A DNA stretch of 24,878 nucleotides from a bacterium (GTDB taxonomy: Bacteria > AUK180), in the NCBI GenBank assembly GCA_030622125.1, contig JAUXGM010000013.1:1-24878 (forward strand). The letters are read 5' to 3'. This document shows positions 1,131 through 17,534 of the stretch, one piece after another; within the stretch, counting starts at the first letter, position 1; the number at the start of each line of letters is the position of its first letter. The translations under genes were made by a program, and so were the position numbers. Below the pieces are notes generated by a model. That model did no database searches. It had not been told where the DNA came from and was given only the letters and a program-made list of their open reading frames with translations.

Positions 1131-1174
1131 CGGGACATTCCTTTGAAAAAGGTGTGCCCCAAGACTGTGTCCCG
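1131..1174 (-). repeat. REP-like palindromic element, copy 1
   Basis: Read on the minus strand, this starts CGGGACACAGTC, continues TTGGGGCACAC and ends TGTCCCG. It matches the element at 17490-17534 at 21 of the first 24 bases and at all of the last 7. On the plus strand it folds as arm 1132-1144 against 1148-1160: an outer GGG/CCC, an inner CCTTT/AAAGG, and a three-base GAA loop, with two mismatches and one G-T wobble. No reading frame is needed to explain it. It lies between the surface protein gene and the khpA promoter. Placement in the REP class is inferred from size, palindromic form, intergenic position and the RAYT gene in this window. Confidence 0.7.
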
Positions 1175-1280
1175 AGGCAACCAAGGAAATCCAATTGCCT
1201 GTCTGCGTATTGTCGCACAGCACAGGTAGGGAATCTCCGTGGTAAAAAAAAAATCTTATTTCACAAAAAACAAAAAAAAC

Positions 1281-1308
1281 TTGAAAAAAAATATAAATAT
1301 GTTATAAT
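1281..1308 (+). promoter_or_regulatory. Sigma70-type promoter of the khpA-rimM-trmD operon
   Basis: The -35 box is TTGAAA (1281-1286) and the -10 box is a perfect TATAAT (1303-1308), separated by 16 bases. The -10 is extended by TGT at 1300-1302. Transcription would start near 1315, giving a leader of about 125 bases before khpA. It is the best promoter match upstream of this operon. Confidence 0.75.
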
Positions 1309-1441
1309 TAAAATTATGAAAATAATGGAAGTGTATTGCCTTAATTTCAATTCTCCCTTTTCAATTGTGAAGAGGCTCAGAAATTTGAATATTGCAGCGT
1401 ATCGTAAGATAGTAAAACGAAATTACTAAATGGAGGAAAAA

Positions 1442-1690
1442 ATGGAAGTGAAAGAAATCCTAAAAAACATTATTGAAGGTCTTGTTGATGACAGAGATGC
1501 AATAGAAATTGAAGAAGTGCAAAGTTCTACGATGTTTGTCTATGAAATCAAAGTAGGAACGGATGATATTGGTAAGGTTATTGGAAAATCAGGTAGAAAC
1601 GCTACTGCTATAAGAACTATTATTACATCTATCGCAAGAAAACAAGGTAAAAGCGCTCATATCAAATTTAATGATCGCGCCGAAAGATAA
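1442..1690 (+). CDS. khpA: KH-domain RNA-binding protein KhpA
   Basis: An 82-residue single KH-domain protein. The RNA-binding GxxG loop is GKSG at residues 48-51, inside GKVIGKSGR, followed by the usual TAIRTI helix. Family members (KhpA/YlqC) bind RNA, often as a partner of KhpB/Jag, and affect cell division and translation. The start at 1442 was chosen because GGAGG at 1432-1436 lies five bases upstream. An in-frame ATG at 1430 overlaps that ribosome binding site and has none of its own. Gene order khpA-rimM-trmD-rplS is classic, but rpsP, which normally comes just before khpA, is missing here. First gene after the promoter at 1281-1308. Confidence 0.9.
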   Translation: MEVKEILKNIIEGLVDDRDAIEIEEVQSSTMFVYEIKVGTDDIGKVIGKSGRNATAIRTIITSIARKQGKSAHIKFNDRAER

Positions 1691-2201
1691 TTATTTATTG
1701 ATCGGCAAATTAATTGGAACCTTTGGCAACAAGGGTGAGTTAAAGCTCTTTTCGGCATGGACTGTTGATATTGAAATATTTATCGGGAAAGAACTTTGTG
1801 TTCATCTACCGAATAATATTGATAAAGAGGTCGTTTTAAAAAGTGCAAGGAGACATAAAAATGTTTTCCTTGTGAACCTTGACCCTTATTGTAATATCGA
1901 GAGTGCAAAAGAATTAATTGGCGGAGATGTTTATACTAATGATAAATATCTCTCCAGAGAAAATGGCGAGATCTATTTTTCTGATATTGACGGTTTTGAA
2001 TGTTGTCTTGAATCGGGAAAAATATTCGGCAGATTAGTCGGATTTAAGGAAGTACCTCAATACGATCTTTTCGTTATTGAAAGAAAAGATGGCAGCCAAA
2101 TAGATATTCCCAATATTCCGGAATTCGTGAAAACAATTGAGCGAATAAACAGGAAGATCATATTTTTTAGTAATAGAATCAAGGATTACTATGAAGATTG
2201 A
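1671..2201 (+). CDS. rimM: Ribosome maturation factor RimM
   Basis: A 176-residue protein of normal RimM length. The N-terminal RimM barrel carries LIGKLIGTFGNKGELK at about residues 9-24. The C-terminal PRC-barrel carries YDLFVIERKDG, then IDIPNIPEFV. RimM binds ribosomal protein S19 and assists late assembly of the 30S head. The start overlaps the khpA end by 20 bases. No good ribosome binding site precedes the ATG at 1671, so translational coupling is likely, and a TTG start at 1698 cannot be excluded. The stop overlaps trmD by 11 bases. Confidence 0.92.
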   Translation: MIAPKDNYLLIGKLIGTFGNKGELKLFSAWTVDIEIFIGKELCVHLPNNIDKEVVLKSARRHKNVFLVNLDPYCNIESAKELIGGDVYTNDKYLSRENGEIYFSDIDGFECCLESGKIFGRLVGFKEVPQYDLFVIERKDGSQIDIPNIPEFVKTIERINRKIIFFSNRIKDYYED

Positions 2202-2826
2202 TGTTGTTACCATTTTCCCTGAGCTCTTTGAATCATTTTTGAAGGTAGGACTGCTTGGAAAAAGTGTAATGGAAGGCAAATTGCAAATAAGTATTCATAA
2301 CCTCAGAGATTATACCACCGATAGGCATCATCAGGTAGATGATTATCCTTATGGTGGTGGCAGAGGAATGATATTTATGATAGAACCTCTTTACAACGCT
2401 TATGAGAGTTTAAGGCGGAATGATACTTTTATGATCTTAATGAGTGCGGATGGAAAATTGCTTACCAATGCCCGAACAAAAAAAATAAGTAAAAAGAGGC
2501 ATATTTTGATCTTTTGCGGAAGATATGAGGGCATTGACGAGAGATTTAAAAGATTTGCGGATATGGAAATATCAATCGGTAGGTATGTAGTTTACGGTGG
2601 CGAGATCCCTGCAATGGTTTTGATAGAAGGTGTAACCCGATTTTTACCGAATATTCTTGATAGTGAGGTAGTGGAAAATGAAACCTATTCTCAAGGAAAT
2701 TTGAGTGATTTCCCACAGTATAGCAGACCTCGGGAATTTAAAGATATGAAAGTTCCGGAAGTTCTTTTAAACGGAAATCATAAAGAGATAGCAAAATGGC
2801 GAGAAAAACAGAGAAAAAAAATATAG
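2191..2826 (+). CDS. trmD: tRNA (guanine-37-N1)-methyltransferase TrmD
   Basis: A 211-residue SPOUT (knotted) methyltransferase that uses S-adenosylmethionine to make m1G37 in tRNAs, which prevents frameshifting. Visible signatures are MKIDVVTIFPELF at the start, YGGGRGM at residues 54-60, CGRYEGIDER at 109-118, and SDFPQYSRP near 172-180 with the expected acidic residue D173. The C-terminal region is compact compared with the usual 230-250 residues. The well-conserved SIGDYV motif reads SIGRYV, with Arg at residue 131. AAGGA at 2181-2185 lies upstream of the ATG. The gene overlaps rimM by 11 bases and the next methyltransferase by 31. Confidence 0.95.
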   Translation: MKIDVVTIFPELFESFLKVGLLGKSVMEGKLQISIHNLRDYTTDRHHQVDDYPYGGGRGMIFMIEPLYNAYESLRRNDTFMILMSADGKLLTNARTKKISKKRHILIFCGRYEGIDERFKRFADMEISIGRYVVYGGEIPAMVLIEGVTRFLPNILDSEVVENETYSQGNLSDFPQYSRPREFKDMKVPEVLLNGNHKEIAKWREKQRKKI

Positions 2827-3398
2827 GGAAATTTAAAAGCAGTATTTATACGGCTTTGGTAAACTATCCGTCATTGAATAGATCCGGTGATATTGTTACT
2901 ACATCTATAACACCTCTGAGTATCCATGACATTGCGAGAGCATCCGCTACATACAATGCCAAAAAATACTTTGTAGTAAATCCCGTAAATTCTCAGAAGC
3001 GACTGATAAAAAGAATAATTGAGTATTGGAATAATGGTTTCGGCAGCCTTTATAATACAAATAGAAAAATAGCATTAAAAACCATTAAACCGGTAAATAA
3101 TCTTACGGAAGCGTTCAGATGGATTGAAAAGGAAGAAAAAAGAATGCCGGAGATCGTTGTAAGCTCGGCAAAACACTTTCCTAACACCATATCTTTCAAA
3201 GAATTGAGAAAAAAGATATTTGATGAAGATAAAATTTTTCTCTTGTTGTTTGGAACAGGCTGGGGTTTACCTGATGAAATTATTATGGAATCGGATTATA
3301 TATTGGAAGCAATAAATGGCTACAGCACTTTTAATCATCTTTCTGTTAGAAGCGCAGCCGCAATTATATTGGATAGATTATTATGTATGGAGGAATAA
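2796..3398 (+). CDS. SPOUT-type RNA methyltransferase (Methyltrn_RNA_4 family) next to TrmD
   Basis: A 200-residue protein resembling the SAM-dependent RNA methyltransferase family often encoded between trmD and rplS in diverse bacteria. Typical features are [10 protein letters not shown] at residues 16-25, [20 protein letters not shown] at 42-61, a glycine-rich SAM-site segment [11 protein letters not shown] at 151-161, and a closing [16 protein letters not shown] helix at 181-196, as in knotted SPOUT enzymes. Its RNA target is unknown. The start at 2796 lies inside trmD (31-base overlap) behind only a weak AAAGAG motif, which suggests coupling. The first dozen residues are Lys/Arg-rich and precede the conserved core. 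Confidence 0.8.
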
Positions 3399-3399
3399 T

Positions 3400-3762
3400 A
3401 TGGAAGATTTAATGGGCGAAATAAAAAAGCATTATGAAGAGAAAATTCGCAAGGAAAAGACAATACCGAAATTTTCTGTTGGAGATACCGTAAAGGTATG
3501 GATACGGGTTATTGAAGGAAATAAATCCCGATTACAGGGGTTTCAAGGTGTTGTAATTAGAAAAAAAGGTAAAGGAATTGAAGCAACATTTACCGTTAGA
3601 AGGGTATCAATGGATGTAGGAGTTGAAAGAATATTTCCTCTCTATGGTCCGACGGTTGAAAAGGTAGATGTGATCAAAAAAGGTAAGGTAAGACGCGCAA
3701 AGATATATTATATTAGAGAAAGAAGAGGAAAATCGGCAAGGATCAAAGAAAGGAAAAAATGA
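3400..3762 (+). CDS. rplS: 50S ribosomal protein L19
   Basis: A 120-residue protein of normal L19 length. It carries [35 protein letters not shown] and the [19 protein letters not shown] block, which are diagnostic of L19 at the interface of the 30S and 50S subunits. The start at 3400 is set by GGAGG at 3389-3393, six bases upstream. The frame stays open further back to 3316, but that part lies inside the preceding gene and does not resemble L19. The stop overlaps the rnhB start in an ATGA arrangement. Confidence 0.97.
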
Positions 3763-4409
3763 CGGAATTGATTGGGAATATCTCAGATATAGGGATGCTC
3801 TCAGAATTGGAATTTTCTCTAAAAAAACAGGGTTATAATTATATTTGCGGTATAGATGAAGCGGGTAGAGGTGCTCTTGCCGGACCGGTTGTCGTCGGCA
3901 GTGTCATTATCAACGAGAAAATAGATGGGATAACCGATTCAAAAAAAATCAGACCGAAAAAACGCGAATTACTTTTTAAAGAGATCCAAAAACAAGCACT
4001 TACATACAGTGTCGGAATTATCTATCCGAATGTAATTGATAAGATAAATATTCTTAATGCTACAAAAAAAGGCGTAGTAAAAAGTGTGGAACTTTTAAAA
4101 CAAAAACCGGATATATTGGTTCTTGATGCTTTAAAGGTAAAAGAAATTAATATAGAACAACTATCATTTATAAAAGGTGATCTATACATATATTCAATAG
4201 GTGCTGCCTCCATTATCGCTAAGGTTATTCGTGACAGAATAATGCGGTACTATGATAAAATATATCCTCAATACGGCTTTGCTTCGCATAAGGGTTACGG
4301 TACAAAATTACATATCAGAATGATCCGAGAGAATGGAATATCGCCTATTCACAGAAAAAGTTTTGAACCCATATATTCATTGAACAAGGGGGACCTTTTT
4401 GAAAGATAA
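3759..4409 (+). CDS. rnhB: Ribonuclease HII
   Basis: A 216-residue enzyme that cuts RNA in RNA-DNA hybrids and at single ribonucleotides in DNA. The DEDD metal-binding residues are visible: D33 and E34 in GIDEAGRG, D123 in VLDAL, and D159 in KVIRDR. The C-terminal [14 protein letters not shown] block is also typical. The ATG at 3759 overlaps the rplS stop by four bases and is preceded by AAAGGA. Its 3' end overlaps yraN by 11 bases. The order rplS-rnhB-yraN is common in bacteria. Confidence 0.96.
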
Positions 4410-4746
4410 ACGAAAAATCGGAAAAAAATATGAAGAAATCGCTTCTCAATATCTGATGCAGCATAACTGGAAAATACTTGAGAAGAATTACACATTTCAC
4501 CATAAAGAAGTTGATCTGATCATCCAAAAAGAAGATGAGATATGCCTTGTTGAGGTAAAATATCGGAGGAGCGATAGTTTTGGTGAACCAAAGGAATTCG
4601 TTAATGAAAATAAGAAAAGAAATATAAAAATGATCGCAAAATATTATATTAGTTCAAAGAAATTATTTGACAAAAACATCACTTTTGGTATAATATCAAT
4701 AACAAATGGTAAAATAAATTTTGAGAGAGGTTTTTTTCAATGGTAA
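4399..4746 (+). CDS. yraN: YraN/UPF0102 family putative nuclease
   Basis: A 115-residue protein of the UPF0102 family, which has a Holliday-junction-resolvase-like PD-(D/E)xK fold. Family features visible are YEEIASQYL at residues 11-19, KEVDLI with D39, and VEVKYR with E52 and K54, giving the D-ExK metal-site pattern. The biochemical role is not firmly known. A link to DNA processing is inferred from the fold and from its usual place beside rnhB and comM. Translation starts at a TTG (4399) six bases after a G-rich site at 4388-4392. No in-frame ATG lies close by. Confidence 0.85.
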   Translation: MKDKRKIGKKYEEIASQYLMQHNWKILEKNYTFHHKEVDLIIQKEDEICLVEVKYRRSDSFGEPKEFVNENKKRNIKMIAKYYISSKKLFDKNITFGIISITNGKINFERGFFQW

Positions 4747-6257
4747 CAAAATTATTTTCATCATCAATTGAAGGATTGGATTCAAGAGGTGTAGAGGTAG
4801 AGGTTGACCTTTCCAATGGATTAACCGCCTTTAATCTTGTCGGACTTCCTGACAGTGCTGTTAAAGAAAGCAAGGAAAGGGTAAGAACTGCAATTCAAAG
4901 CAGCGGGTTTATTTTTCCCTTAAGAAGAATTACGGTTAATCTTGCTCCTGCTGATATTAGAAAAGAAGGGTCTTCTTATGATCTTCCAATCGCTCTCGGT
5001 ATCTTGATTGAAAACGGTATGTTGGAACCTCCACGGAAGAAATATTTGATTGCCGGAGAATTATCTTTGAACGGTGAGCTTAGAAAATTATCAGGTGGTA
5101 TATCCTTAGCACTTCTTGCAAGAGAGATGAAAGCCGACGGTATAATTATTCCGGAAAAAAATGCAAATGAATGTGCGGTCATTGACGGTGTAACCGTCTA
5201 TAGTTTTGAATCACTTTTTGAAGTAATTCAATTTTTAAAAGGCGATATTGAAAAGAGCGAAGTAAAGGTAAGCTACGAAAAATATCTTGAAAAATTAAAT
5301 AAATACACCACCGATTTTTCTGATGTAAAGGGACAATATCTCGTTAAAAGAGCGATTGAGATCGCTATTTCCGGTGGTCATAATGTTCTTATGATCGGTC
5401 CTCCCGGTGCAGGAAAGAGTATGCTTGCAAAAAGAATACTTACCATAATGCCGGATATGACATTAGATGAAGCGATAAAGGTGACAAGAATCCATTCTGT
5501 TAGCGGACTTGTTAACAATGAGATAGTTTCTGAAAGACCGTTTAGAAACCCACATAGTTCGATATCAAAAATTGGACTTTTAGGCGGTGGTACATATCCG
5601 CGCCCGGGAGAGATCTCTCTTGCACATCGCGGTGTTCTATTTTTAGATGAATTTCCTGGATTTAATAAAGATGCCATAGAAGGACTTCGTGAGCCGCTTG
5701 AAAATGGTGCCATTACCATTTCAAGATCAAAGCAGAGCATAACATTTCCGGCTAATTTTATTCTTGTTGCTGCTATGAATCCCTGTCCCTGCGGTTATTA
5801 TAATGATCCGACCCATGAATGCCGATGCAGTATAAGTGAAATTCAAAGATACAGGAAAAAAATATCGGGACCAATAATGGATAGAATTGATATCCACATA
5901 GATGTTCAGCCTGTTCCCGTTGAGGATTTGCAAAAAAAGAAAGCCGGAGAGAATTCAAAAGAGATCAAAGAAAGAATAGAAAATGTTAGAAAAATTCAAA
6001 GATTAAGATATAAAGAAGAGCAATTCTCGGAAAATGGAGATATAGCTGACAGAGAGCTTGAAAGATACTGTAAAGTGAGTGTCCAAAGTGAACAATTACT
6101 CGCCGATGCTATGCGGCTATATAAGCTTTCCGCAAGAAGTTATAAAAAAATATTAAAAATAGCAAGAACAATTGCCGATATGGACAGTTCGGAGAATATA
6201 AAAGAAAATCATCTCAGTGAAGCATTGAATTATAGGATTTTGGATCGGGAGATATGA
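4740..6257 (+). CDS. comM: ComM/YifB family AAA+ ATPase (Mg-chelatase-like)
   Basis: A 505-residue protein of full family length. The N-terminal LonC-like domain (about 1-170) has FNLVGLPDSAVKESKERVR and the SSYDLPIALG motif. The AAA+ core has Walker A GPPGAGKS at 220-227, Walker B VLFLDEF at 299-305, and a Cys cluster in NPCPCG and CRCS (C349, C351, C361, C363). A C-terminal Mg-chelatase helical domain follows. ComM homologues are hexameric helicases that promote branch migration during natural transformation. That role is inferred here, since no competence genes are in view. GAGAGAGG lies upstream of the ATG, which overlaps yraN by seven bases. Confidence 0.93.
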   Translation: MVTKLFSSSIEGLDSRGVEVEVDLSNGLTAFNLVGLPDSAVKESKERVRTAIQSSGFIFPLRRITVNLAPADIRKEGSSYDLPIALGILIENGMLEPPRKKYLIAGELSLNGELRKLSGGISLALLAREMKADGIIIPEKNANECAVIDGVTVYSFESLFEVIQFLKGDIEKSEVKVSYEKYLEKLNKYTTDFSDVKGQYLVKRAIEIAISGGHNVLMIGPPGAGKSMLAKRILTIMPDMTLDEAIKVTRIHSVSGLVNNEIVSERPFRNPHSSISKIGLLGGGTYPRPGEISLAHRGVLFLDEFPGFNKDAIEGLREPLENGAITISRSKQSITFPANFILVAAMNPCPCGYYNDPTHECRCSISEIQRYRKKISGPIMDRIDIHIDVQPVPVEDLQKKKAGENSKEIKERIENVRKIQRLRYKEEQFSENGDIADRELERYCKVSVQSEQLLADAMRLYKLSARSYKKILKIARTIADMDSSENIKENHLSEALNYRILDREI

Positions 6258-7210
6258 AAAAAAAATATATTGTTTGTATTGATCTCGGTGGTAACACAAC
6301 AAAATTAGCACTTATGAATTTGAATGGAAAAATTTTATGCAAGGACCATTTTTTGACAATGTCGAAATTGGGCAGCGATAGATATCTAAAAACATTGGAA
6401 GACCATATTGATCTGTTATTGGTATCCAATAAAATTAAGAAAAAAGAACTTATCGGAATAGGAATGGGTTCTCCGGGACCAATAGATATAAATAAGGGAA
6501 TAATGCTCTATTCTGCAAATTTCCCCGGTTGGAAAAATGTAAATTTTAAGTTATTTTTAGAAAATAAATACGAAGTTCCTGCATTTTTTGAGAACGATGT
6601 AAATATGGTCGGACTTGGTGAATACTATTTAAATCTCCAGGGCAAATATAGACATATTATTATTTTAACACTTGGTACGGGACTTGGTGGAACATATATT
6701 GAGAATGGAAAAATACTTCATGGGCGAAATGGTTTTGCAGGTGAATTCGGCCATATTCAGATCGTTGAAAAAGGAATACCCTGTGGTTGTGGTTCTAACG
6801 GATGTTTAGAGGCGTATATCTCTGCAAGCGGTATAAAAAAACGGTTGCAGAAATTGAAAGCGAATAAAAAAACAAATACGGAATTCATCTTAAGGCTTGA
6901 TGATCTTACCCCAAAATCCGTTTACAAACTCGCTGAAGAAGGAAACGGTTATGCGATCTCATTTTTCAGAGATACCGGCTATTATTTGGGTATAGGACTC
7001 AAAACAATTATAAACATCTTTAATCCGGATCTTATCTTAATTGGCGGTGGAATGTTCAGATCATTGAAGTATATCCTGCCTTCGACAAAAAAATATATAA
7101 AGGAAAATGCCTTTTTCGTAATGGTGAAAGATCTTGAGATCAAAAAGATAAATTTTTCTGAAAAGCTTGCATTTTACGGGGCATTTTTACTCGTTAAAAA
7201 TGGAATATAA
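6254..7210 (+). CDS. ROK family sugar kinase (glucokinase-like)
   Basis: A 318-residue ROK protein. The N-terminal phosphate loop is IDLGGNTTK (D10 onward). The catalytic Asp is D115 in ENDVN. The ATP-site loop is TLGTGLGG at 139-146. The ROK zinc site is formed by H167 in EFGHI and C177, C179 and C184 in CGCGSNGC. No N-terminal helix-turn-helix is present, so this is a kinase rather than a ROK repressor. It should phosphorylate glucose or an amino sugar. The GlmU-like gene downstream makes an N-acetylhexosamine pathway plausible, but the substrate cannot be read from sequence alone. GGGAG at 6247-6251 precedes the ATG, which overlaps the comM stop by four bases. Confidence 0.9.
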   Translation: MKKKYIVCIDLGGNTTKLALMNLNGKILCKDHFLTMSKLGSDRYLKTLEDHIDLLLVSNKIKKKELIGIGMGSPGPIDINKGIMLYSANFPGWKNVNFKLFLENKYEVPAFFENDVNMVGLGEYYLNLQGKYRHIIILTLGTGLGGTYIENGKILHGRNGFAGEFGHIQIVEKGIPCGCGSNGCLEAYISASGIKKRLQKLKANKKTNTEFILRLDDLTPKSVYKLAEEGNGYAISFFRDTGYYLGIGLKTIINIFNPDLILIGGGMFRSLKYILPSTKKYIKENAFFVMVKDLEIKKINFSEKLAFYGAFLLVKNGI

Positions 7211-7223
7211 TAAAGGAGCTGCT

Positions 7224-8237
7224 ATGATAACATTATTTGAAGACCATCGGAGTAATTTTTATCCCTTTACCCTATCAAGAACAATTGCGAATATGTATTA
7301 TGGTTTGTTTAACAACATAGAAAGAGTAGAAATATTTAGTGCTAAAACAAAAAAAGAAGATTTAGATATTGAGATAAATAGCAGGTTTATGGGATTCGGG
7401 GCGTTGAAATATATCTTTGATCTTAAAAAAGATAGTAAGTTAATTGATATTAACGGAGATTGCGTTGCAAGAAGAGGAGCGGGAACAAGGAAAACCAAAA
7501 TTGAAAAAAAACTCCTTTTTTCTTTTTCTTATGATATGATGGCTGAGAACGGGGTTTTTATAAGAGATGATATAAGAGAGACCAAGGGAGATGAAAAATT
7601 GATCGTAGATAAATCTGCTGTCATTGAAGATTTCGTCTATCTTGACACAAAAAATGGACCGATATTTATAGATAAAGAAGCAAAGATCCATGCAGGAAGT
7701 AGAATAGAGGGACCCTGTTATATTGGCAAAAAGACAAAGATATTTACTGCAAAAATAAGAAAAAACACTTCGATCTTTACCGATTGCCGTATCGGAGGTG
7801 AGGTAGAACAATCTATCTTTTATCCTTACTCAAATAAATACCATGAGGGCTTTGTCGGGCATTCTATTTTCGGTTCATTTACCAATTTGGGAGCACTTAC
7901 AACGACATCGGATCTGAAAAATAATTATGGTAATATCAGAATATTCCTGCAGGGTAAAGCAGTCGATACAGATATAATGAAACTTGGAACATTATGTGGC
8001 GACCACACAAAATTAGGTATAGGAACATTAATAAATAGCGGCACTGTGATCGGTTTTTCATCCAATCTTTTTGGTGGCGGTTTCTTTAAAAAAGAATATC
8101 CGTCATTCTATTGGGGAAGAGCAGATAAAGGGACAACTTATGATATTGAAAAAGCAATAGAAACTGCAAAAATTTCAATGAAAAGACGAGGAATTAACTT
8201 TTCAAAAGATGAAAATTGGGGACGGTGGTTAGTTTGA
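7224..8237 (+). CDS. GlmU-like sugar nucleotidyltransferase/acetyltransferase
   Basis: A 337-residue protein resembling the alternative bacterial GlmU family. It opens with the family hallmark LFEDHRSNFYPFTLSRTIAN. From about residue 130 to 290 it becomes a left-handed beta-helix of hexapeptide repeats, with FIDKEAKIHAGSRIEGPCYI and the conserved HEGFVGHSIFGSFTNLGA region (H207, H213) followed by TTTSDLKNNYG. The family is thought to acetylate glucosamine-1-phosphate and couple it to UTP for envelope sugars. The N-terminal half is short compared with the roughly 390-400 residues usual for the family. The start at 7224 was chosen because AAGGAG at 7213-7218 lies five bases upstream, although an open frame extends to 7167. 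Confidence 0.82.
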   Translation: MITLFEDHRSNFYPFTLSRTIANMYYGLFNNIERVEIFSAKTKKEDLDIEINSRFMGFGALKYIFDLKKDSKLIDINGDCVARRGAGTRKTKIEKKLLFSFSYDMMAENGVFIRDDIRETKGDEKLIVDKSAVIEDFVYLDTKNGPIFIDKEAKIHAGSRIEGPCYIGKKTKIFTAKIRKNTSIFTDCRIGGEVEQSIFYPYSNKYHEGFVGHSIFGSFTNLGALTTTSDLKNNYGNIRIFLQGKAVDTDIMKLGTLCGDHTKLGIGTLINSGTVIGFSSNLFGGGFFKKEYPSFYWGRADKGTTYDIEKAIETAKISMKRRGINFSKDENWGRWLV

Positions 8238-8255
8238 TTAGTTTACTGGGTGAAA

Positions 8256-8300
8256 AATGTTCATAAAACATTTATTGATTAACTTATTTTATGGTATAAT
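8256..8300 (+). promoter_or_regulatory. Promoter upstream of the RAYT-gmk run, with an adjoining small palindrome
   Basis: A perfect TATAAT at 8295-8300 is extended by TGG (8292-8294), giving a TGnTATAAT extended -10. Candidate -35 boxes are TTGATT at 8275-8280 (14-base spacing, short) or TTTATT at 8271-8276 (18 bases). Just upstream, AATGTT/AACATT (8256-8261 and 8267-8272) form a six-base inverted repeat with a five-base loop, which might be an operator or a weak terminator for the upstream operon. No T run follows it. This promoter would serve RAYT and probably gmk, coaBC and the genes beyond. Confidence 0.55.
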
Positions 8301-8346
8301 AAGATGGGAATAGTTATTAATTTTCATTTGTTTAATGGCGGGAAAC

Positions 8347-9234
8347 ATGGCTCGTAGAGCTCGTATTGATCTACCTAATTTCTGGTATCATATCATTGTA
8401 AAAGGTGTAAATGGAATGAAAATTTTTAGAAGTGATAATGATAAAAAATATTTTATGAAAATACTTTATTCTTTACTTTCTGAATATGATATATTATTAT
8501 CTTCATTTTGTTTAATGGACAATCATTTTCATTTAATAGTTTTAAGGCAAAGTATCTCTTTATATAAATTTATGCATAGATTATTAACAAAATATGCTTT
8601 GTATTTTAATAAAAAATACAAACGCAAGGGTCATCTTTTTAATGATAGATACCATTCTTTTATTATTTTAAAAGAGCGATATTTAATTATCGCAGTAATA
8701 TATGTTAATCAAAATTCAGTCAAAGCGGGAAAAGTTGCAAAATCTATTAATTATAGATTTTCTTCAGCTAAATGTTATTATGGTTTGGAAGACAATCCGT
8801 TTATCACAAAAATTCCAAATTTTGATGGAGACGAAGGAATAAAAAACTATATTGCAAATAGTCCTGAAGAATTTGTTGAATTAGAAATTTATAGGGATTC
8901 TATTGGCAGGAAAGATGATTACATCCTTTTAAATAAAAGAAAACTTGGTAGAGATAAAGAAAAATATATAGAGAGAAGAGACATTAAAGAAGATGAAAAT
9001 ATAAACAATATTATTAGAAAATTGTTGATCGAAAAAATGCAGATAAAAGAAAAAATCCTGCAAATGATTAGATCTAAAAAGAAAAGGGGAGACATCATTA
9101 AGTTAAGAAAAAAGGCAGTTCTTTTATTATATGCTGAAGGTTTTACCCTATCTGAAATTGCAAGATTTATGAATAAAAGTTTGCCAACGATATTTAACAC
9201 AGTAAAAAAATATGGAGGAAATAAATATGAGTAA
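8347..9234 (+). CDS. REP-associated tyrosine transposase (RAYT, Y1/HUH family)
   Basis: A 295-residue single-strand DNA transposase-like enzyme. The HUH metal motif is H60-F61-H62 in MDNHFHLIV. The likely nucleophile is Y119 in AVIYVNQNSVKAG, the family's tyrosine position. GHLFNDRYHS at 96-105 is also typical. A C-terminal helix-turn-helix candidate lies near AEGFTLSEIARFMNKSLPTI. RAYTs cut and join REP palindromes and are usually single-copy and non-mobile. Two in-frame ATGs exist, at 8335 and 8347. The later one gives the family-typical MARRARIDLP start and follows a CGGG tract. The gene is visibly richer in A and T than its neighbours, consistent with horizontal origin. No terminal inverted repeats or target duplications were seen. 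Its stop overlaps the gmk start by eight bases. Confidence 0.92.
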   Translation: MARRARIDLPNFWYHIIVKGVNGMKIFRSDNDKKYFMKILYSLLSEYDILLSSFCLMDNHFHLIVLRQSISLYKFMHRLLTKYALYFNKKYKRKGHLFNDRYHSFIILKERYLIIAVIYVNQNSVKAGKVAKSINYRFSSAKCYYGLEDNPFITKIPNFDGDEGIKNYIANSPEEFVELEIYRDSIGRKDDYILLNKRKLGRDKEKYIERRDIKEDENINNIIRKLLIEKMQIKEKILQMIRSKKKRGDIIKLRKKAVLLLYAEGFTLSEIARFMNKSLPTIFNTVKKYGGNKYE

Positions 9235-9871
9235 ACTAATTAAACTAACCACCGTCCCCATTTCCTACTACAATGCCGGGTTTTTAGTTGTTTTAACGGC
9301 ACCATCAGGGGCGGGAAAAACAACGATAAGAGACGGCATATTAAAACTCCACCCCGAAATAATGTATTCGATTTCTACAACTACAAGAAAACCAAGAAGG
9401 AATGAGGCGAACGGAAGAGATTATTTCTTTGTCTCGGGGAATGAATTTAAGGATATGATCAAAAATGATAAACTTATTGAATGGGCAAAGGTGCATAATC
9501 ACTATTACGGAACGCCAAAAGATTTTGTTAAAAAGCATATAAGACAGGGAAAGATCATTGTTATGGATATAGATGTTCAAGGTGGAATAAACATAAAAAA
9601 ACGATTTCCGGATGCGGTATTTATCTTTATCCTTCCTCCCTCTTTTGAAGAGCTTGAAAAGAGATTACTTGAAAGAGGAACAGACAATTTAAAAACGATA
9701 AAATTAAGGATAGAAAATGCTAAAAAAGAGATTGCAATGATGTATAATTACAATTATATTATTGTTAATGATGAGGTAGAAAAAGCCATTGATGAAACAG
9801 AAGCAATTATTATTGCCGAGCAAAGAAAAATATCAAGAAATGTAGATTTTTACAAGGGGTATATTAAATGA
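9227..9871 (+). CDS. gmk: Guanylate kinase
   Basis: A 214-residue kinase converting GMP to GDP with ATP. The P-loop is APSGAGKT at residues 25-32. The GMP-binding block is TTRKPRRNEANGRDYFFV at 52-69, then EWAKVHNHYYGT and the MDIDVQGG Walker-B-like segment. The N-terminus is about 15-20 residues longer than most Gmk proteins, which begin shortly before the P-loop. The start at 9227 is set by GGAGG at 9214-9218, eight bases upstream. This ribosome binding site lies inside the end of the RAYT gene, so gmk translation is probably tied to RAYT translation or at least to its transcript. The stop overlaps coaBC in an ATGA arrangement. Confidence 0.95.
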   Translation: MSKLIKLTTVPISYYNAGFLVVLTAPSGAGKTTIRDGILKLHPEIMYSISTTTRKPRRNEANGRDYFFVSGNEFKDMIKNDKLIEWAKVHNHYYGTPKDFVKKHIRQGKIIVMDIDVQGGINIKKRFPDAVFIFILPPSFEELEKRLLERGTDNLKTIKLRIENAKKEIAMMYNYNYIIVNDEVEKAIDETEAIIIAEQRKISRNVDFYKGYIK

Positions 9872-11031: not shown

Positions 11032-12320
11032 TGAAGAAAATTCCATTAGCAGAATTACTAAGACCTGCTGCCTTCGATGATGTTGTCGGACAGGAACATC
11101 TCACATCACTAAATTCACCATTTAGAAAAATGATAGAAGAAGATAATTTTTCATCATTTATTCTTTGGGGTCCTCCCGGTGTTGGAAAAACAACGATAGC
11201 AAAAATAATCTCAAAAAATGAGGGATTAAATTTTTACCACTTTTCCGCTGCTTCATCGGGAATTCCCGAATTAAGAAGGATAATAAAGGATTCAAAATCA
11301 CTTTTATCTGCCAATAAAAAAACAGTGATATTCATAGATGAGATACATCATTTCACAAAGACCCAACAAGATTTTTTATTGCCATATACGGAAGATGGAA
11401 CGATCACATTGCTTGCCGCCACTACGGAAAATCCTTCTTTTCAATTGAATGCCGCCCTCTTATCACGGTTAAGTGTTTTTATTTTGTACGCACTTCCGGA
11501 AGAATCAATAGAAAAAATCTTGTTAAGAGCAATAAAAAGAATGGATCAATGGCTTACAAAAAAGGTAAGTTTTACCGATGATGGGATCAAGACAATAATA
11601 TCACTTTCAGGGAAGGATGCGCGAATAGCACTCTCCATATTGGAAAGCAGTGCGAAAGCAATATCCAAAAAAAGTATTGATAAAAATGATATTGAGAACT
11701 TTGTTAAACTTACAACCTTGAAATTTGATAAAAAAGGAGAAGAGCATTACAATCAGATATCCGCACTCCATAAATCATTAAGGGGTTCGGATGTTGATGC
11801 TGCCCTCTATTGGGGGAAAAGGATATTGATGGCAGGGGAGGACCCAAGGTATCTTCTCAGAAGATTGATCCGATTTGCCGCAGAAGATATCGGACTTGCC
11901 GACCCCAATGCTTTAAATTTAGCAGTTTCCGCAAAAGAAAGTTATGAATTTCTCGGAAGCCCGGAAGGGGAGATCGGAATAATTGAACTTATAATCTATC
12001 TGGCACTTTCTCCAAAGAGTAATTCCGTCTATATTGCCGAGAAGAATGTGGATGCAAAGATAAAAGCAACAGGATATCTTGAAGTGTCTTTTCACATAAG
12101 AAATGCACCCACAAAACTGATGAAAGATATTGGTTATGGAAAAGGATATGAATACTCCCAAAATTTTAAGAATGCAATAAATGCACAGGATTACCTCCCT
12201 GAAAAATTAAAAGGAACGATCTTTTATAATCCGAGTGATAGGGGCTTTGAGGAAAAATTAAAAAAAAGATTGGACTATATAAAAAAAACAAAGAAAAGAT
12301 TAAAAGATGAAAAAAATTAA
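11031..12320 (+). CDS. rarA: Replication-associated recombination ATPase RarA/MgsA
   Basis: A 429-residue AAA+ ATPase related to clamp loaders, acting at stalled forks. It begins with LAELLRPAAFDDVVGQEHL. Walker A is GPPGVGKT at residues 47-54, Walker B FIDEIHHF at 101-108, sensor 1 TTENPSF at 131-137, and the Arg finger is in LLSRLSVF (R146). The C-terminal tetramerisation part includes SDVDAALYWGKRIL and RRLIRFAAEDIGLADP, both diagnostic of RarA. Its ATG shares one base with the coaBC TAA stop (TAATG), and GAAGGA lies just upstream. It overlaps the next gene by 14 bases. Confidence 0.95.
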   Translation: MKKIPLAELLRPAAFDDVVGQEHLTSLNSPFRKMIEEDNFSSFILWGPPGVGKTTIAKIISKNEGLNFYHFSAASSGIPELRRIIKDSKSLLSANKKTVIFIDEIHHFTKTQQDFLLPYTEDGTITLLAATTENPSFQLNAALLSRLSVFILYALPEESIEKILLRAIKRMDQWLTKKVSFTDDGIKTIISLSGKDARIALSILESSAKAISKKSIDKNDIENFVKLTTLKFDKKGEEHYNQISALHKSLRGSDVDAALYWGKRILMAGEDPRYLLRRLIRFAAEDIGLADPNALNLAVSAKESYEFLGSPEGEIGIIELIIYLALSPKSNSVYIAEKNVDAKIKATGYLEVSFHIRNAPTKLMKDIGYGKGYEYSQNFKNAINAQDYLPEKLKGTIFYNPSDRGFEEKLKKRLDYIKKTKKRLKDEKN

Positions 12321-13800
12321 TTTGATAGTGATACTGATTATTTTGACAATAATTACTTTTGCAAAAACAAATTTTTATGTATTTTATTCTTATGATTGTG
12401 ATGGCTGTCAAGCACTTTTAGAAGGAATTTTACAAGAAAAATTAGAAAAATATGATCCGATATTCCACTATTTCGAGGTTTCAAGTGAAGTAAATATGGA
12501 TGTCCTTTTTAAGCTTGAAAAAACAATTGGGAAAAAAGGTGAGGATTTCCCTGAAATTATTGTTGGAAATAGCTTATTTGCGGCAAATGAACTTATTGAA
12601 GACGAATTCTATCAATATATTAAGAAGAAAAAACCTGAGGATGTAACACCGGAACTTAAAGATATTATATCTAAGGGGGTTGAATTTAGAGAAGTTAAGT
12701 GGCAAAGAGAAACAGAAAATATAACTGAATTTAATAGCAAAAAAAATGTTTGTATTGCCTATTTTTATTCTGCCGCATGTAATCATTGCAGAAAGACAGA
12801 CAAGGTCCTTGAGATATTGAAAAAAAAATATGGTTTTAATATAGATAATTTTTCACTTCCCCAAAATACTGTACTTTTGGAGGCAATGGAGGAAAAATTC
12901 GACTTAGCAAGTAAATACCATCTCGGTTATCCGAAGATATTTATCGGGAATGATATTTTGATATCTAATGATATTACAAAGGAATCGATAGAGTTTTTAA
13001 TAAATAAATATGATGAGGCAGAACCATACTGGCGGAAAATAAAGATAGGAAAGGGAATTAGGAACAATATTGTAAAACGATTCAAAGAATTCCGATTGGG
13101 TGCTATTATTGCGGGAGGAATCATAGATGGGATCAATCCCTGTGCATTTACAACGATCCTTTTTTTTATCTCATTTTTGACACTTACCAAAAGAACCAAA
13201 AAGGAGATACTAATAACCGGATTATCATTTTGTTTGGCAATATTTATCTCATACTATGCAATAGGAGTAGGGCTTATCTATCTTTTAAAATCAATAGCGA
13301 CTATTTCAATTATTTCAAAGATCATCTATATAGGAATGGGAATTGTTGTGTTGGTCTTTGCAGGGCTTTCATTTTACGATTATTTTATGTTTAAAAAAGG
13401 AATGACAAAAAAAGCAATGCTCCAACTTCCCGATTATCTTAAAAAAAAGGCACATTCCATAATAAGAAGAGGAAGAAAGAGCCATTATATTTTTATTTCA
13501 GCATTTGTAACCGGTATCTTAATCTCATTTGTGGAATTTGCATGTACGGGGCAGGTCTATCTTCCTACGATTACATTCGTAATGAAGATCCCTGAACTCA
13601 GGATAAAAGCACTTTTTTTTCTTTTTTTATACAATATCTTTTTTACCTTACCGCTTATCGGCGTATTTATTCTTGCATATTTAGGTTTTTCTTCTGAGAA
13701 ATTCAATACGGTTTATAAAAAAATGGGACCAGGTGTAAAACTTGTAACCGGTATCTTCTTTGTCATTCTCGGTGCATTACTTATTCTTTTATCATTATGA
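12307..13800 (+). CDS. DsbD/CcdA-like thiol-disulfide carrier with two N-terminal thioredoxin-like domains
   Basis: A 497-residue protein with a signal peptide or first membrane anchor (about 1-19). The first thioredoxin-like domain has CDGC at residues 31-34 and a likely cis-Pro at 82. The second has CNHC at 158-161 and a cis-Pro candidate in LGYPKIFIG. A multi-helix DsbD/CcdA membrane domain follows from about 264 to the end. Its paired cysteines are C279 in GINPCAF and C413 in FACTGQVYLP, the signature for passing electrons from cytoplasmic thioredoxin to the periplasm. E. coli DsbD has its thioredoxin domain after the membrane part, so this order is different. The cysteine-rich protease at 18006 could be a client, which is inference only. 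The gene overlaps rarA by 14 bases, with no strong ribosome binding site. Confidence 0.85.
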   Translation: MKKINLIVILIILTIITFAKTNFYVFYSYDCDGCQALLEGILQEKLEKYDPIFHYFEVSSEVNMDVLFKLEKTIGKKGEDFPEIIVGNSLFAANELIEDEFYQYIKKKKPEDVTPELKDIISKGVEFREVKWQRETENITEFNSKKNVCIAYFYSAACNHCRKTDKVLEILKKKYGFNIDNFSLPQNTVLLEAMEEKFDLASKYHLGYPKIFIGNDILISNDITKESIEFLINKYDEAEPYWRKIKIGKGIRNNIVKRFKEFRLGAIIAGGIIDGINPCAFTTILFFISFLTLTKRTKKEILITGLSFCLAIFISYYAIGVGLIYLLKSIATISIISKIIYIGMGIVVLVFAGLSFYDYFMFKKGMTKKAMLQLPDYLKKKAHSIIRRGRKSHYIFISAFVTGILISFVEFACTGQVYLPTITFVMKIPELRIKALFFLFLYNIFFTLPLIGVFILAYLGFSSEKFNTVYKKMGPGVKLVTGIFFVILGALLILLSL

Positions 13801-14540
13801 TAGATCTTACAAATAAAAAAGTATTGATTGTCAGCGACATTCATTATGGTGAAAAGAATAAAAAAGGAAGTGAACTCTTTTTAAAATTTATAAAAAATTA
13901 TAAAGATTATGATGCAATGATCTTAAATGGTGATATCTTTGATTTCTTCTATGAGCCGGTAGAAAATAAATATCATTTGAATAAAGAAATTCTTACTGAT
14001 TTTAAAAATCTTAACAAGGATATCTATTTCATTCCCGGCAACCATGATTTTTGGGGTAAGAATATCTTGCTTAAAAACGGTATTCATTATTACCCTTATG
14101 GATTTGGGGTTATGCAGAACGGTAAACGATTTTTTGTTCATCATGGCGACGGTTTTAATCCGAAGGATATCGGATACACTATCCTGAAAGGATTGACCCA
14201 TAGCGGACTTCTTTTTGAGATTGGAAAATTGATCATACCGGCATCATTTTTTTACAGGTATATCAGGGATGTTTCAAGAACCGACAGTTTTGTATCTCAT
14301 AGCAGAATAGAGGTAGAATACCTTGAAAAAACAGGAATTAAGATCGCAAAAAAATACGGCTATGATGGCATCATTACCGGTCATTCCCATTATCCGTATA
14401 TAAAAAAAATAGGAGATTTGATCTATGCAAATTCAGGCGATTTCCTTATCAACTTTTCCTATCTTGTTTTGGAAAACGGTGAGATTTTATTAAATTATAT
14501 CGTTCCCGGGGGAACAAAGCCCGCCTCGGTCCCGTCATAA
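13797..14540 (+). CDS. Calcineurin-like metallophosphoesterase, LpxH-like
   Basis: A 247-residue phosphoesterase with the full metal-binding set: D14 and H16 in SDIHYG, D46 in NGDIFDF, N82-H83 in PGNHD, H116 in HHGD, and H196/H198 in GHSHYP. Spacing and length fit the UDP-2,3-diacylglucosamine hydrolase (LpxH) group of lipid A synthesis, but other phosphoesterases share these motifs, so lipid A is an inference. The ATG overlaps the stop of the DsbD-like gene by four bases. The last 46 bases overlap the convergent kinase gene. They encode a Gly/Pro-rich tail (PGGTKPASVPS) that does not look like part of the enzyme core. Confidence 0.82.
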   Translation: MIDLTNKKVLIVSDIHYGEKNKKGSELFLKFIKNYKDYDAMILNGDIFDFFYEPVENKYHLNKEILTDFKNLNKDIYFIPGNHDFWGKNILLKNGIHYYPYGFGVMQNGKRFFVHHGDGFNPKDIGYTILKGLTHSGLLFEIGKLIIPASFFYRYIRDVSRTDSFVSHSRIEVEYLEKTGIKIAKKYGYDGIITGHSHYPYIKKIGDLIYANSGDFLINFSYLVLENGEILLNYIVPGGTKPASVPS

Positions 14541-15730
14541 TTATACCTTAGCGAGCCGATCTGGATAAATTTAACCTTATCTTTCTCAGATTCATTTAAA
14601 GAAGTCAGGATACTTACATTTTTATTTGTAAAATCGATACCGGATATAATACCTACTGCAAGTGCAAATCCATTACTGTTGGTAAGTCCGACATAAATAT
14701 TTTTTAAATATTGTGGTCGAAACCATTTTGCTCTCGGGTACTTATTCAATATTGTTGAAAAATGATTTTTATCAATATTATCAGGGAAGACTATCAAATC
14801 TCCTTCCCATCCCGGTAGTTTTTCCATATAGAGAACATCAAGGAAATCGTTATTTTCTTGATTGCCGCTTCCTAAAAAACAACGGTCAAATTTTACGCTG
14901 TCAAATGAAAATATCTTTTCCTTTGCATTTTTAAAAAAGGATCTTGAAATATTTTCCCTGAGTTCTTTTCTAATGATTTGAGAGGTGTCGCTTGCCCTTT
15001 TTGAAACAGTTAGTCGCAATATTTTATCCTTCTCAATATGGCGGACAAGATGTTCAAGTTCGTTATCTCTTTGAAGCAGGATGATCAGATCGGGATCAAT
15101 AATATCTATCTTTGCCCTTTTGATACTTCTTCCGCCATCTCCATGCACCCAGCCGGTTGTGTCAAGGATAAATACATCTGTTTTCTTTTCGGCATATTTC
15201 GTTATTCTGGATATACCGGAGAGAAAGGTTGTAAAACATCCACCGGGAGAATGATTACCTATAAAAAATTGCCTATTTATCGGCACCTCTGATAGAGAAA
15301 AATAAGAGCGGTCAAAAATACCGAAACCAATTGTTCCGGGTGCACCGATATCCGATTGTCCCGTATCCGTATCTATAACGCCGACCTTAAGCTCTCTTTC
15401 TAAAAGTTGATTGGCGATAAATGTGGAGAAAAAGGATTTTCCCGTATCCACTTCACCTAAAACAACTATTTTTTTGATCTTTTTATCTATCACTATATCC
15501 GGAATATCATACCATATTTTAGGAATAGTGGAAGCGCTAAGTTCTTCAAATAAACCGCCGGTAATATCCAGATCACCATCTTCCAGACAGATAAAAGGAA
15601 GTTGTTTGCCATTGGGGATCGATATTTTGCCATTTGTATATATTGCACCGATAATTTCATACTTACCGTTTTTAATATCAACGGTTATTTCACCTTTTGC
15701 AAGATAAAGTTTGTCTTTTTTCGTTTTCAT
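14495..15730 (-). CDS. Clp1/GRC3-type polynucleotide 5'-hydroxyl kinase
   Basis: A 411-residue protein with an N-terminal beta-rich region (about 1-75) and a Clp1_P-type kinase domain. Walker A is GEVDTGKS at residues 92-99. The Clp1-specific DTDTGQSDIGAPGTIG follows at 120-135, then a Walker-B-like VFILDTTGWVHG at 186-197. The C-terminal 150 residues end in Clp1-like beta structure. The family transfers phosphate from ATP to the 5'-OH of RNA or DNA. It is well known in eukaryotic and archaeal RNA processing and less common in bacteria. The ATG at 15730 overlaps the upstream gene stop by four bases (ATGA), with GAGG upstream. It is the last gene of the minus-strand operon after the DHH phosphoesterase, which suggests joint work on nucleic-acid ends. 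Confidence 0.8.
   Translation of the reverse strand: MKTKKDKLYLAKGEITVDIKNGKYEIIGAIYTNGKISIPNGKQLPFICLEDGDLDITGGLFEELSASTIPKIWYDIPDIVIDKKIKKIVVLGEVDTGKSFFSTFIANQLLERELKVGVIDTDTGQSDIGAPGTIGFGIFDRSYFSLSEVPINRQFFIGNHSPGGCFTTFLSGISRITKYAEKKTDVFILDTTGWVHGDGGRSIKRAKIDIIDPDLIILLQRDNELEHLVRHIEKDKILRLTVSKRASDTSQIIRKELRENISRSFFKNAKEKIFSFDSVKFDRCFLGSGNQENNDFLDVLYMEKLPGWEGDLIVFPDNIDKNHFSTILNKYPRAKWFRPQYLKNIYVGLTNSNGFALAVGIISGIDFTNKNVSILTSLNESEKDKVKFIQIGSLRYNYDGTEAGFVPPGTI
14502..14515. other. GC-rich perfect palindrome inside overlapping convergent gene ends
   Basis: GTTCCC (14502-14507) and GGGAAC (14510-14515) flank two G bases. The site is much more GC-rich than its surroundings and falls in the 46-base overlap of the phosphoesterase and kinase genes. 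It could form a hairpin on either transcript, but no T run follows on either strand, so an intrinsic terminator is not well supported. Confidence 0.5.
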
Positions 15731-16116
15731 TTTTTTCTTACCTCAAATAATAATGTCGGCCAGAACTTTTCAATTGTCTTATCATTTATTATAAATATCT
15801 CAGAGACATCCCTCAATGGTATCTCGTAATTTTCTACAAATATGGTAGAATCATTTGCCCGAGCGATACCATAATACTCCTTTCCATCAATAGCTCTTAT
15901 CAAATATTTTCTTTCCTCTTCAATTTCCTCCGCTTTTATTTTTTCTATCATACTCCCGGCACACATTGCAACAAGTCCGGGATTTATAGATAGTTTTTTT
16001 CTCAGATTTGAGATTTCCTTTAAGGCATCAATTATAAACTCTCTGTTTTTATATTCGTTTATAATTCTATCTATAAGATTCATAATGTCTTCAAATTCAT
16101 TTTCTAAATATGCCAT
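15727..16116 (-). CDS. Small protein of unknown function between DHH phosphoesterase and kinase
   Basis: I do not recognise this 129-residue protein. The first 70 or so residues look helical and charged, with MAYLENEFEDIMNLIDRIIN and later NLRKKLSINPG. The last 55 look like beta strands: YLIRAIDGKEYYGIA, then STIFVENYEIPLRDVSEIFII. The strand pattern with a central xDGKEYxG turn is reminiscent of a small SH3- or Sm-like barrel, which is speculative. The start at 16116 was chosen because GGAG lies just upstream and the DHH stop ends one base before it. A TTG at 16143 would extend it by nine residues. It overlaps the kinase start by four bases, so all three genes are tightly coupled. Confidence 0.7.
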   Translation of the reverse strand: MAYLENEFEDIMNLIDRIINEYKNREFIIDALKEISNLRKKLSINPGLVAMCAGSMIEKIKAEEIEEERKYLIRAIDGKEYYGIARANDSTIFVENYEIPLRDVSEIFIINDKTIEKFWPTLLFEVRKK

Positions 16117-16117
16117 A

Positions 16118-17422
16118 TTATACTCCGTATTTTTCTTTATCAAAATTATTTTTTATATCGTGAAACTGTTTCAAGAAGATCGACAATGCTTCATCATAAG
16201 GGTAATTCTTGATCATAACATTGCATTCGGCTGCCTTCGGATGCCCGCCTCCCGATATCAATGCCTTTTGTTCATCCGAAACGGTTGCTTTTAAGAGTTC
16301 TGCAAGATCTCCCATTATTTTTCCCGAATGCAGGTTTCCGCCGGTTGATCTAACTGAAAAATGAACAATATCATTTTTTTTCGCTGCCATTATGAATATT
16401 GCGTCCTCGCCATTTGCAAAATCAAAAAGAGCAACGGATCCAAGCATCGGCATTAAATTCATTTCCTTACCCATATAGAGAAACACTCGGGTTTCCTCCA
16501 TTTTTTTTAATTCTATATTTGTGGAAAGAAGATCAATGCCTTTTTCCCAATCCTCTTCAAAGAATTTCAGAATAAGATGTGCTTTTTCCGAGAATTCCTC
16601 AATATCAAGAAGTTCCTCCTCGCTTTTTATTGCGGCAAGGGCAATATTCTGTTTTCGTATTGCTTTTAACATTCTGTATGAAAATTCAGGTTGAAAGATA
16701 TCTTTTAATCTATTATCTTTTTCATTATAAAAAAATTGAAATGCTCCGCCCGATATTGCATGAAGATCATGTGCATACCTTGAAAGTAAGGTCGTAACGG
16801 ATTTTTGTGATGCTTCAAACATTGTCGGTTCAAGGTCATTTCTCTTTTCTATCAGATTTGGGAATTTGCTTGCGAACTCATTATAAAAAGACAGGACATA
16901 AGGTGCGACCATATCAATTGCCGGATCAATGACCCAGTCGCCCTTCATTCCGACCATAGCATAAAGATCGGTAAGATCATCTCTATAGCCAAGTGCCGCA
17001 GCAATGTTGTGTACAACAAAAGATGCGGAACAGTAAGAATTCGGTTTCAGCGACGGGTTGTAATAACTGATTTTTTCGGGGACCGCCGGGGTAAAATGGT
17101 GATCAATCGTTAAAAACGGCTTTTGCGGATCATAAAAATCATCATATTCCTTTAATGTTCCTTTATCGGTAATTACGATAGCATCATAATCGTTATCCGG
17201 AATATCCGATTTTCTTAAAGCAAAATTCGAAGGGAAAAAAATCTTATATTCAATGCCGAGATATTCAAAAAGCTCACTTGTAAGTGCAGCCGATGATATA
17301 CCGTCGGGATCATCATGGGAAAAATAATAAACCTTTTTACCTTTTAGGTCTCTAAAAAATTGCATAACATTGCCAAAATCCTTATTGGCTTTCAGTCTTT
17401 CAATAAATTCATCATAGTTCAT
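16118..17422 (-). CDS. DHH/DHHA1 family phosphoesterase (RecJ-like or oligonucleotide phosphatase)
   Basis: A 434-residue protein with the DHH motifs in order: SHDDPDGISSA at residues 35-45 (metal-binding D38 and D40), ITDKG with D86, the name-giving DHH at 107-109, and MVGMKGDWVID at 156-166. The C-terminal DHHA1 domain has GGGHPKAAEC near 391-400. Members include single-strand exonucleases (RecJ), nanoRNases (NrnA) and cyclic dinucleotide phosphodiesterases. No CBS, GGDEF or membrane domain is present, and the sequence resembles archaeal-type DHH proteins more than classic RecJ. It is first in the minus-strand operon, with a promoter at 17449-17477. Substrate is not assigned, though its kinase neighbour suggests nucleic acid. 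Confidence 0.85.
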   Translation of the reverse strand: MNYDEFIERLKANKDFGNVMQFFRDLKGKKVYYFSHDDPDGISSAALTSELFEYLGIEYKIFFPSNFALRKSDIPDNDYDAIVITDKGTLKEYDDFYDPQKPFLTIDHHFTPAVPEKISYYNPSLKPNSYCSASFVVHNIAAALGYRDDLTDLYAMVGMKGDWVIDPAIDMVAPYVLSFYNEFASKFPNLIEKRNDLEPTMFEASQKSVTTLLSRYAHDLHAISGGAFQFFYNEKDNRLKDIFQPEFSYRMLKAIRKQNIALAAIKSEEELLDIEEFSEKAHLILKFFEEDWEKGIDLLSTNIELKKMEETRVFLYMGKEMNLMPMLGSVALFDFANGEDAIFIMAAKKNDIVHFSVRSTGGNLHSGKIMGDLAELLKATVSDEQKALISGGGHPKAAECNVMIKNYPYDEALSIFLKQFHDIKNNFDKEKYGV

Positions 17423-17448
17423 AACACACTCTCATAAAAATTAAGGTT

Positions 17449-17477
17449 ATTATAATAGATTTTTTAAAAAAATGCAA
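17449..17477 (-). promoter_or_regulatory. Promoter of the DHH-small protein-kinase operon
   Basis: On the minus strand, TTGCAT (17477-17472) is followed after 17 bases by a perfect TATAAT (17454-17449). The DHH start codon is at 17422, leaving a short leader. The -35 is only a half match, while the -10 and spacing are good. Confidence 0.6.
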
Positions 17478-17489
17478 ATATTAAGGTAG

Positions 17490-17534
17490 AGGGACGCAGT
17501 CTTGGGACACACGATGCAAGCAACGTATGTCCCG
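17490..17534 (+). repeat. REP-like palindromic element, copy 2
   Basis: It starts AGGGACGCAGTC, continues TTGGGACACAC and ends TGTCCCG, matching copy 1 (1131-1174, opposite strand). The hairpin runs from 17504 to 17533: GGGACA pairs with TGTCCC and ACG with CGT, with one C-A mismatch, around a ten-base loop. A GTAG tetranucleotide sits immediately 5' at 17486-17489, the position where classic REPs carry the RAYT recognition tetranucleotide. A GCAAGC/GCTTGC pair (17516-17521 and 17534-17539) could form an alternative fold. Confidence 0.7.

Follow-up and report, generated by a model that had tools for sequence, protein, structure and literature searches.

The 24,878-nt window analysed here (JAUXGM010000013.1) is contig C140 of 192 in the 2.08-Mb draft genome G000 of an AUK180 bacterium and carries copies of a dispersed family of short imperfect hairpins. 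These hairpins are probably short non-autonomous elements of the REP/TIR-repeat type, which would act as single-stranded hairpins and be moved by a Y1 (HUH) transposase of the type encoded on C172 in the same genome.

The starting point was an initial annotation of the window that had described two inverted copies of a palindrome and proposed a dispersed intergenic repeat. Both copies are present where it placed them, namely, CGGGACACAGTCTTGGGGCACACCTTTTTCAAAGGAATGTCCCG on the minus strand (1174-1131) and AGGGACGCAGTCTTGGGACACACGATGCAAGCAACGTATGTCCCG on the plus strand (17490-17534). Their common left part, given as 21 of 24 bases, corresponds to the window inverted repeat I15 (22 nt, 91% identity), and TGTCCCG closes both. 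The two additional occurrences it had noticed in a tandem array were recovered as CGGGACACAGTC at 17626-17637 and 17698-17709, within three copies of a ~72-bp unit. It had missed that a second hairpin encloses the hairpin of each copy, that the two copies represent the same site type (GGGACACAGTCTT^) with differing cores, and that hairpin c follows as a further member at 17769-17814. Genome-wide, 39 exact matches to GGGACACAGTC were found compared to none in the reversed control, which is far above chance and bears out the dispersed repeat. The genome search and covariance model suggested as a check yielded tens of intergenic copies with paired and covarying stems.

The repeat unit is an imperfect, hairpin-forming palindrome GGGACRCA(Y)...(R)TAYGTCCC of 27-51 nt. 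Its strict pattern matched 96 times in the genome and not once in the reversed control; the covariance model of the hairpin gave at least 103 matches and a 69-nt query 44. Only a few core types occur, namely, b30 (GATGCAAGCAACG), b31 (CTGAACATCCGAG), b51 (containing ATCCCGTATCTGATACGGGA) and c45/46 (CTCAAC...GTTGAG), the rarer b27 and b29, and long cores of >100 nt. A minisatellite or an assembly artefact was also considered, with a real local array and chance matches elsewhere, as the window does contain a tandem array and the assembly is a draft. Given that dozens of copies are scattered over unrelated contexts, that the reversed control is empty and that the independent genome G002 has counterparts, the probability of this reading is practically negligible, and the genome-wide counts already refute it.

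The arms of the hairpins are paired and have changed together. Among 23 distinct arm pairs, 88.4% of the stem cells were paired, and 25 two-sided compensatory cells were counted compared to 9.7 in shuffles (0 of 500 reached 25), though these counts somewhat favour structure as the arms were linked by an artificial loop and the register was read from the sequences themselves. Shifting the register cut the pairing to 21-48%. One b31 loop, for example, was found both within GGGACA...TGTCCC and within GGGACG...CGTCCC. At stem position 7, an invariant C lies opposite an A (C.A mismatch). Oligonucleotides folded as single-stranded DNA reached z values of -2.2 to -5.2. The feet on the 5' side of the hairpins are mostly TCTT or GARTCC. 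A GTAG or CGTC tag is not the rule, with GGTAG before the head in only 3 of 34 copies with unique flanks. GGTAG or GGGTAG stands directly before the hairpin in four copies (G000 C140:17491, C8:12469, C89:15158 and C9:510), at least two of which adjoin another repeat (CGATTAGTCTATTCGTATTCGCT-like); this GTAG-like foot may be chance or real.

The hairpins are mostly located between genes. Only 6 of 154 sampled heads lay inside open reading frames (ORFs) of at least 150 aa, which make up 66% of the sampled DNA, in a sample selected around repeats and with simple ORFs as gene calls. Cut-offs of 110, 130 and 150 aa placed 14, 8 and 6 heads inside. A first estimate with ORFs of at least 80 aa (59 of 154 inside) was dropped, since the repeats themselves produce short spurious ORFs. 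The classifiable loci comprise 11 convergent, 10 tandem and 5 divergent gene pairs. This intergenic placement and these orientations would also suit palindromes maintained by the host as terminators, mRNA stabilisers or protein-binding sites and multiplied mainly by recombination without a dedicated transposase, and TCTTTT follows hairpin c. Such an origin is nevertheless considered improbable. Copies also occur between divergent genes such as those for the DHH-family and subtilase proteins at window 17491-17883, where a terminator scan found none; a terminator-only reading of the window copy was therefore rejected. No Rfam family matched in the window and five further loci, and a permissive Rfam scan of the tandem array gave just two weak and implausible matches. 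Recombination by itself would also hardly account for single copies that are dispersed and have unrelated flanks.

When the loci were tokenised, they followed one grammar. A leader ending in TATCGTTATCTAAkGAAGARTCC is followed by GGGACACAGTCTT, a b-core and GCYTGTTTTC and then, after ~60 bp, by a second leader, hairpin c and TCTTTTATGG. Nesting is seen at several loci, where a matching right end follows downstream (e.g. C55, C152 and C41). Two site types, the A-site GGGACACAGTCTT^ and the C-site CTCAACTTTCTT^, each hold differing cores (27 sampled copies apiece). The A-site contained b30 in 18 copies, long cores in four, b51, b31, b27 and b29 once each and one unclassified core that encloses an inverted hairpin; the C-site contained b31 in 17 copies, b51 in eight, and b30 and a long core once each. 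A similar outer frame (GGGACACACAGTGACGAAGTCACAyAATA...GACACCTTTG) encloses different inverted hairpins in C50 of G000 and in several G002 loci. The ~72-bp array of the window consists of leader and head, repeated, and belongs to this mosaic. Judged by its sequence, the array junction GTC(A/T)TTCTATTTCC seems to reflect a deletion that joined A-site and leader. It is conceivable, but rather doubtful, that the modules are stem-loop cassettes, in which a resident single-strand transposase would repeatedly swap hairpin cores at fixed nested sites and so rewrite intergenic regions from interchangeable palindromic modules.

A hybrid palindrome at G000 C15:8983 (L101), GGGACACATC...GCACCGTCCCC, has its left end from the studied family and its right end from the GGGGACGGTG family. 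Loops and spacers (e.g. L006, L008 and L027) are filled with 7-8-bp quasi-repeats such as CCTCTAA, ATTGTCA, TTATTTCC and TCAATTC, which resemble the short tandemly repeated sequences of cyanobacteria.

In addition to the copies in G000, the covariance model matched 11 times in G002, a genome of the same family, and three times in G003 (GGGACACACCTTAAGAAAGGAATGTCCCG and similar), but not in 28 other genomes. No copies were detected in pattern scans of named genomes or viral contigs nor in a plasmid search, and a phage or plasmid origin is thus unsupported. AUK180 is the label of Candidatus Uvuciota, a candidate phylum from hydrothermal sediments (PMC11382960), to which the host, as a member of the same family as G002, probably belongs.

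Four Y1 transposase genes were found in G000. Most of the intact Y1 genes inspected in this genome and six relatives are flanked by terminal inverted repeats, which mostly start with (R)GGGAC and in a few cases with GGTACC or GGTGCC. The Y1/HUH transposase on C172 is single-copy with TTAGGGACACACCTC ends, its element reading TTAGGGACACACCTCGC...GCGAGGGGCGTCCCTAA; the G002 counterpart (C235) has TTAGGGACACACCTCGC at both ends. These inverted repeats bracket the C172-type gene and are near but not exactly GGGGWSAS. Dispersed hairpins with C172-type ends do occur: the first 12 nt of the C172 ends, GGGACACACCTC, are identical to the arm of some hairpins, as at C8:12482 with GGGACACACCTCTGCGAGGAATGTCCC compared to the GGGACACACCTCGC ends. 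The identity comprises these 12 nt of the hairpin arm, not whole flanking hairpins. It is found in a transposase that occupies one site in the two most repeat-rich genomes. The C172 and C235 proteins share 66% identity, and any other family member reaches at most 50%. The neighbours of both genes match on either side (54.8% and 60.5% protein identity), while in G001, G003 and G004 the same two neighbours are directly adjacent and the site is empty. Thus, either an ancestor of G000 and G002 acquired the element once or the other genomes lost it, and the element has been inherited in place since. RAYTs, too, are single-copy and vertically inherited (PMC8049555).

The C172-type proteins matched Y1_Tnp with 26-32 bits and Bac_DnaA_C with 25-26 bits, the latter under the curated cut-off of 31.5, and the H-Y-H motif is visible in the protein alignment. 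By sequence, the C172 protein resembles a TIRYT (TnpA subclass 2.1). A search of named genomes with it returned one record, JAGGYO010000015.1, the start of which is identical to the C235 locus of G002. From sequence and distribution, the C172 transposase is likely the mobiliser of the hairpins.

Several points weigh against this assignment. The C.A mismatch of the hairpins is missing from the C172 ends, and the C172 element has ATGTTA as its left flank instead of a TCTT/GARTCC foot. The match over 12 nt at the ends was a post hoc observation and leaves 7 informative nt, given that GGGAC is common to most ends; with about 60 ends inspected, the chance of such a match is roughly 0.4%. No hairpin was seen to move, and none has an empty counterpart site at strain level. 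Core swapping could also be explained by plain homologous recombination. Finally, three GGGACACACC hairpins occur in G003, where none of the transposases found has such ends. A perfect co-occurrence of gene and repeat was dropped for this reason, and the correlation is good rather than perfect. In E. coli, too, some genomes that lack a RAYT gene contain REPINs (PMC8049555).

The same genome, G003, would fit an alternative in which another transposon, since lost or absent from the draft assembly, spread the hairpins and the C172 match is only the GGGAC signature common to most Y1 elements. Most inspected Y1 elements indeed begin with variants of (R)GGGAC, and many of the 192 contigs end inside the studied repeats. 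Still, among the inspected ends only those of C172 and C235 continue as GGGACACACCTC, exactly in the two hairpin-richest genomes, and the alternative is regarded as rather unlikely.

If the C172-type transposase does move the hairpins, they would fold while the lagging-strand template is single-stranded. The Y1 protein would recognise the GGGACACA stem and the C.A mismatch in it, nick next to the hairpin foot (TCTT/GARTCC, 5' side) and join the piece to a new site. An existing hairpin of the same family may be the favoured target, which would produce Russian-doll mosaics and core exchange. The 72-bp array would have expanded via unequal recombination or slippage between repeated leaders. TnpA-REP is known to act on single-stranded REP hairpins; E. 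coli REPs require a stem bulge, and cleavage takes place at a CT beside the hairpin (PMC8266576).

The general kind is already known from REP/BIME and RAYT/TIRYT systems, of which REPs, BIMEs and RAYTs are established (PMC2817692, PMC8266576). As with REP/BIME and RAYT of E. coli, the palindromes are intergenic, high-copy and imperfect with a conserved stem irregularity, they form mosaics, and a single-copy transposase gene has related end sequences. Unlike E. coli REPs, most copies have TCTT/GARTCC instead of a GTAG foot; the nesting is in direct order and not in alternating orientation as in BIMEs, and the candidate transposase belongs to the TIRYT branch with a C-terminal helix-turn-helix, which sets it apart from RAYTs. 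Two described REP super-families carry a GTAG or CGTC tag (PMC3733652). The CGTC-tagged palindromic repeats are similar in being short stem-loops with unpaired tags at one end (PMC3733652), but the CGTC tag is absent here and CGTC families have no flanking transposase. MITEs are likewise non-autonomous and have ends in common with a resident transposase, whereas the studied hairpins are shorter and single palindromes with arms of ~12-19 nt.

TIRYTs were described as a group of Y1 transposases whose terminal inverted repeats are long and often of GGGGWSAS type, together with moderately abundant TIR repeat families (PMC3733652). They were later tentatively equated with subclass 2.1, which has a C-terminal helix-turn-helix and for which no REP-like structures were found beside the genes (PMC6006769). 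Both the C172 protein and that of the window transposon show this domain architecture. The present system is similar to TIRYTs and TIR repeats (TIRtrons, TnpA-Y1 subclass 2.1) in its ~280-aa Y1/HUH transposase with a C-terminal helix-turn-helix (Bac_DnaA_C or HTH_23), its GGGGAC-like terminal inverted repeats and its moderately abundant, partly self-complementary same-end families in dimers and clusters. It differs in its units, which are imperfect hairpins, nested, with the invariant mismatch and interchangeable cores, in its GGGACACA ends compared to the published GGGGWSAS (PMC3733652) and in the presence of REP-like hairpins, which were not found near subclass 2.1 genes (PMC6006769). The initial annotation had called the repeat REP-type. 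Descriptively this holds for copy number, intergenic position and paired stems: the units are imperfect palindromes with a stem-loop (27-51 nt; REP range 20-40 nt), present in high copy number and mostly extragenic. It does not extend to the tag or to a classical RAYT. Without GTAG or CGTC and with TIRYT as the only transposase association, the family is REP-like or a TIR-repeat family and not a classical GTAG REP. Thus, it would work like REPs and, by its candidate transposase, belong to the TIRYT kind. The family itself, its TCTT/GARTCC tags, the host candidate phylum and the core-swapping nesting appear to be new.

REP-type hairpins with a dedicated transposase have so far come mostly from Proteobacteria, and their range would now include a candidate phylum with a handful of genomes, together with a different tag, another transposase branch and a nested architecture. 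In three sister genomes the site is empty, which brackets when one transposase arrived and makes it testable whether its gene brought the repeats. The interchangeable cores represent a natural substrate set for recognition by a TIRYT protein.

The features of the window are collected in Table 1. The first hairpin copy lies between an ORF ending at 1053 and another at 1671. The second copy and the array lie between the divergent genes of the DHH-family protein (16121-17422, minus strand) and the subtilase-domain protein (17994-24854, plus strand).

Table 1. Hairpin and transposon features of the window.
Feature	Position	Strand	Basis or remark
Outer palindrome CGGGACA...TGTCCCG with head GGGACACAGTCTT (A-site), contains core b29	1131-1174	-	Sequence and hairpin table
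Hairpin core b29, GGGGCACACCTTTTTCAAAGGAATGTCCC	1132-1160	-	Sequence, hairpin table, pair counts
Intact TIRYT-type transposon, 34-bp terminal inverted repeats GGGGACGGTGGTTAGTTTGATTAGTTTACT	8214-9263	+	Superfamily of the proposed mobiliser, ends differ
Y1 (HUH) transposase gene, Y1_Tnp and HTH_23	8335-9234	+	Domain search
Head GGGACGCAGTCTT, left arm of A-site	17491-17503	+	Sequence
Hairpin core b30, GGGACACACGATGCAAGCAACGTATGTCCC	17504-17533	+	Hairpin table; fold -8 kcal/mol, z -2.5
Three-copy ~72-bp tandem array; unit of leader TATCGTTATCTAAkGAAGARTCC, then GGGACACA head (17627-17637, 17699-17709)	17567-17776	+	
Hairpin c, GGGACACATCTCAAC...GATGAGGTGATGTCCC, then TCTTTTATGG	17769-17814	+	Covariance-model match 17764-17816
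TGTCCC as a lone right end, possibly the arm that closes the outermost nested element	17878-17883	+	Sequence

The Y1 transposon of the window was set aside as mobiliser of the hairpins, as its GGGGACGGTGG ends differ and it has short derivatives of its own. Across the genome, 35 of these ends were counted, some of which form MITE-like pairs (161-198 bp) at C34, C40, C45 and C91. The protein of the window transposon shares 94% identity with one in G002, as would be expected if the element has moved recently.

Many of the inverted repeats of the Y1 elements (L057, L059, L141, L143, L147, L151, L154 and others) carry a double direct iteron with a period of ~8-9 bp just inside GGGAC, for example TTGCAAAAG-TTGCAAAA or GTGAAGAGT-GTGAAGAGT. 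Each transposase is accompanied by a different iteron, and the iterons may serve as a recognition code for the helix-turn-helix domain. At the left end of the window (1-558), a 258-bp tandem repeat (2.2 copies) lies in an ORF with SdrD_B/carboxypeptidase-regulatory-like domains and a C-terminal secretion sorting domain.

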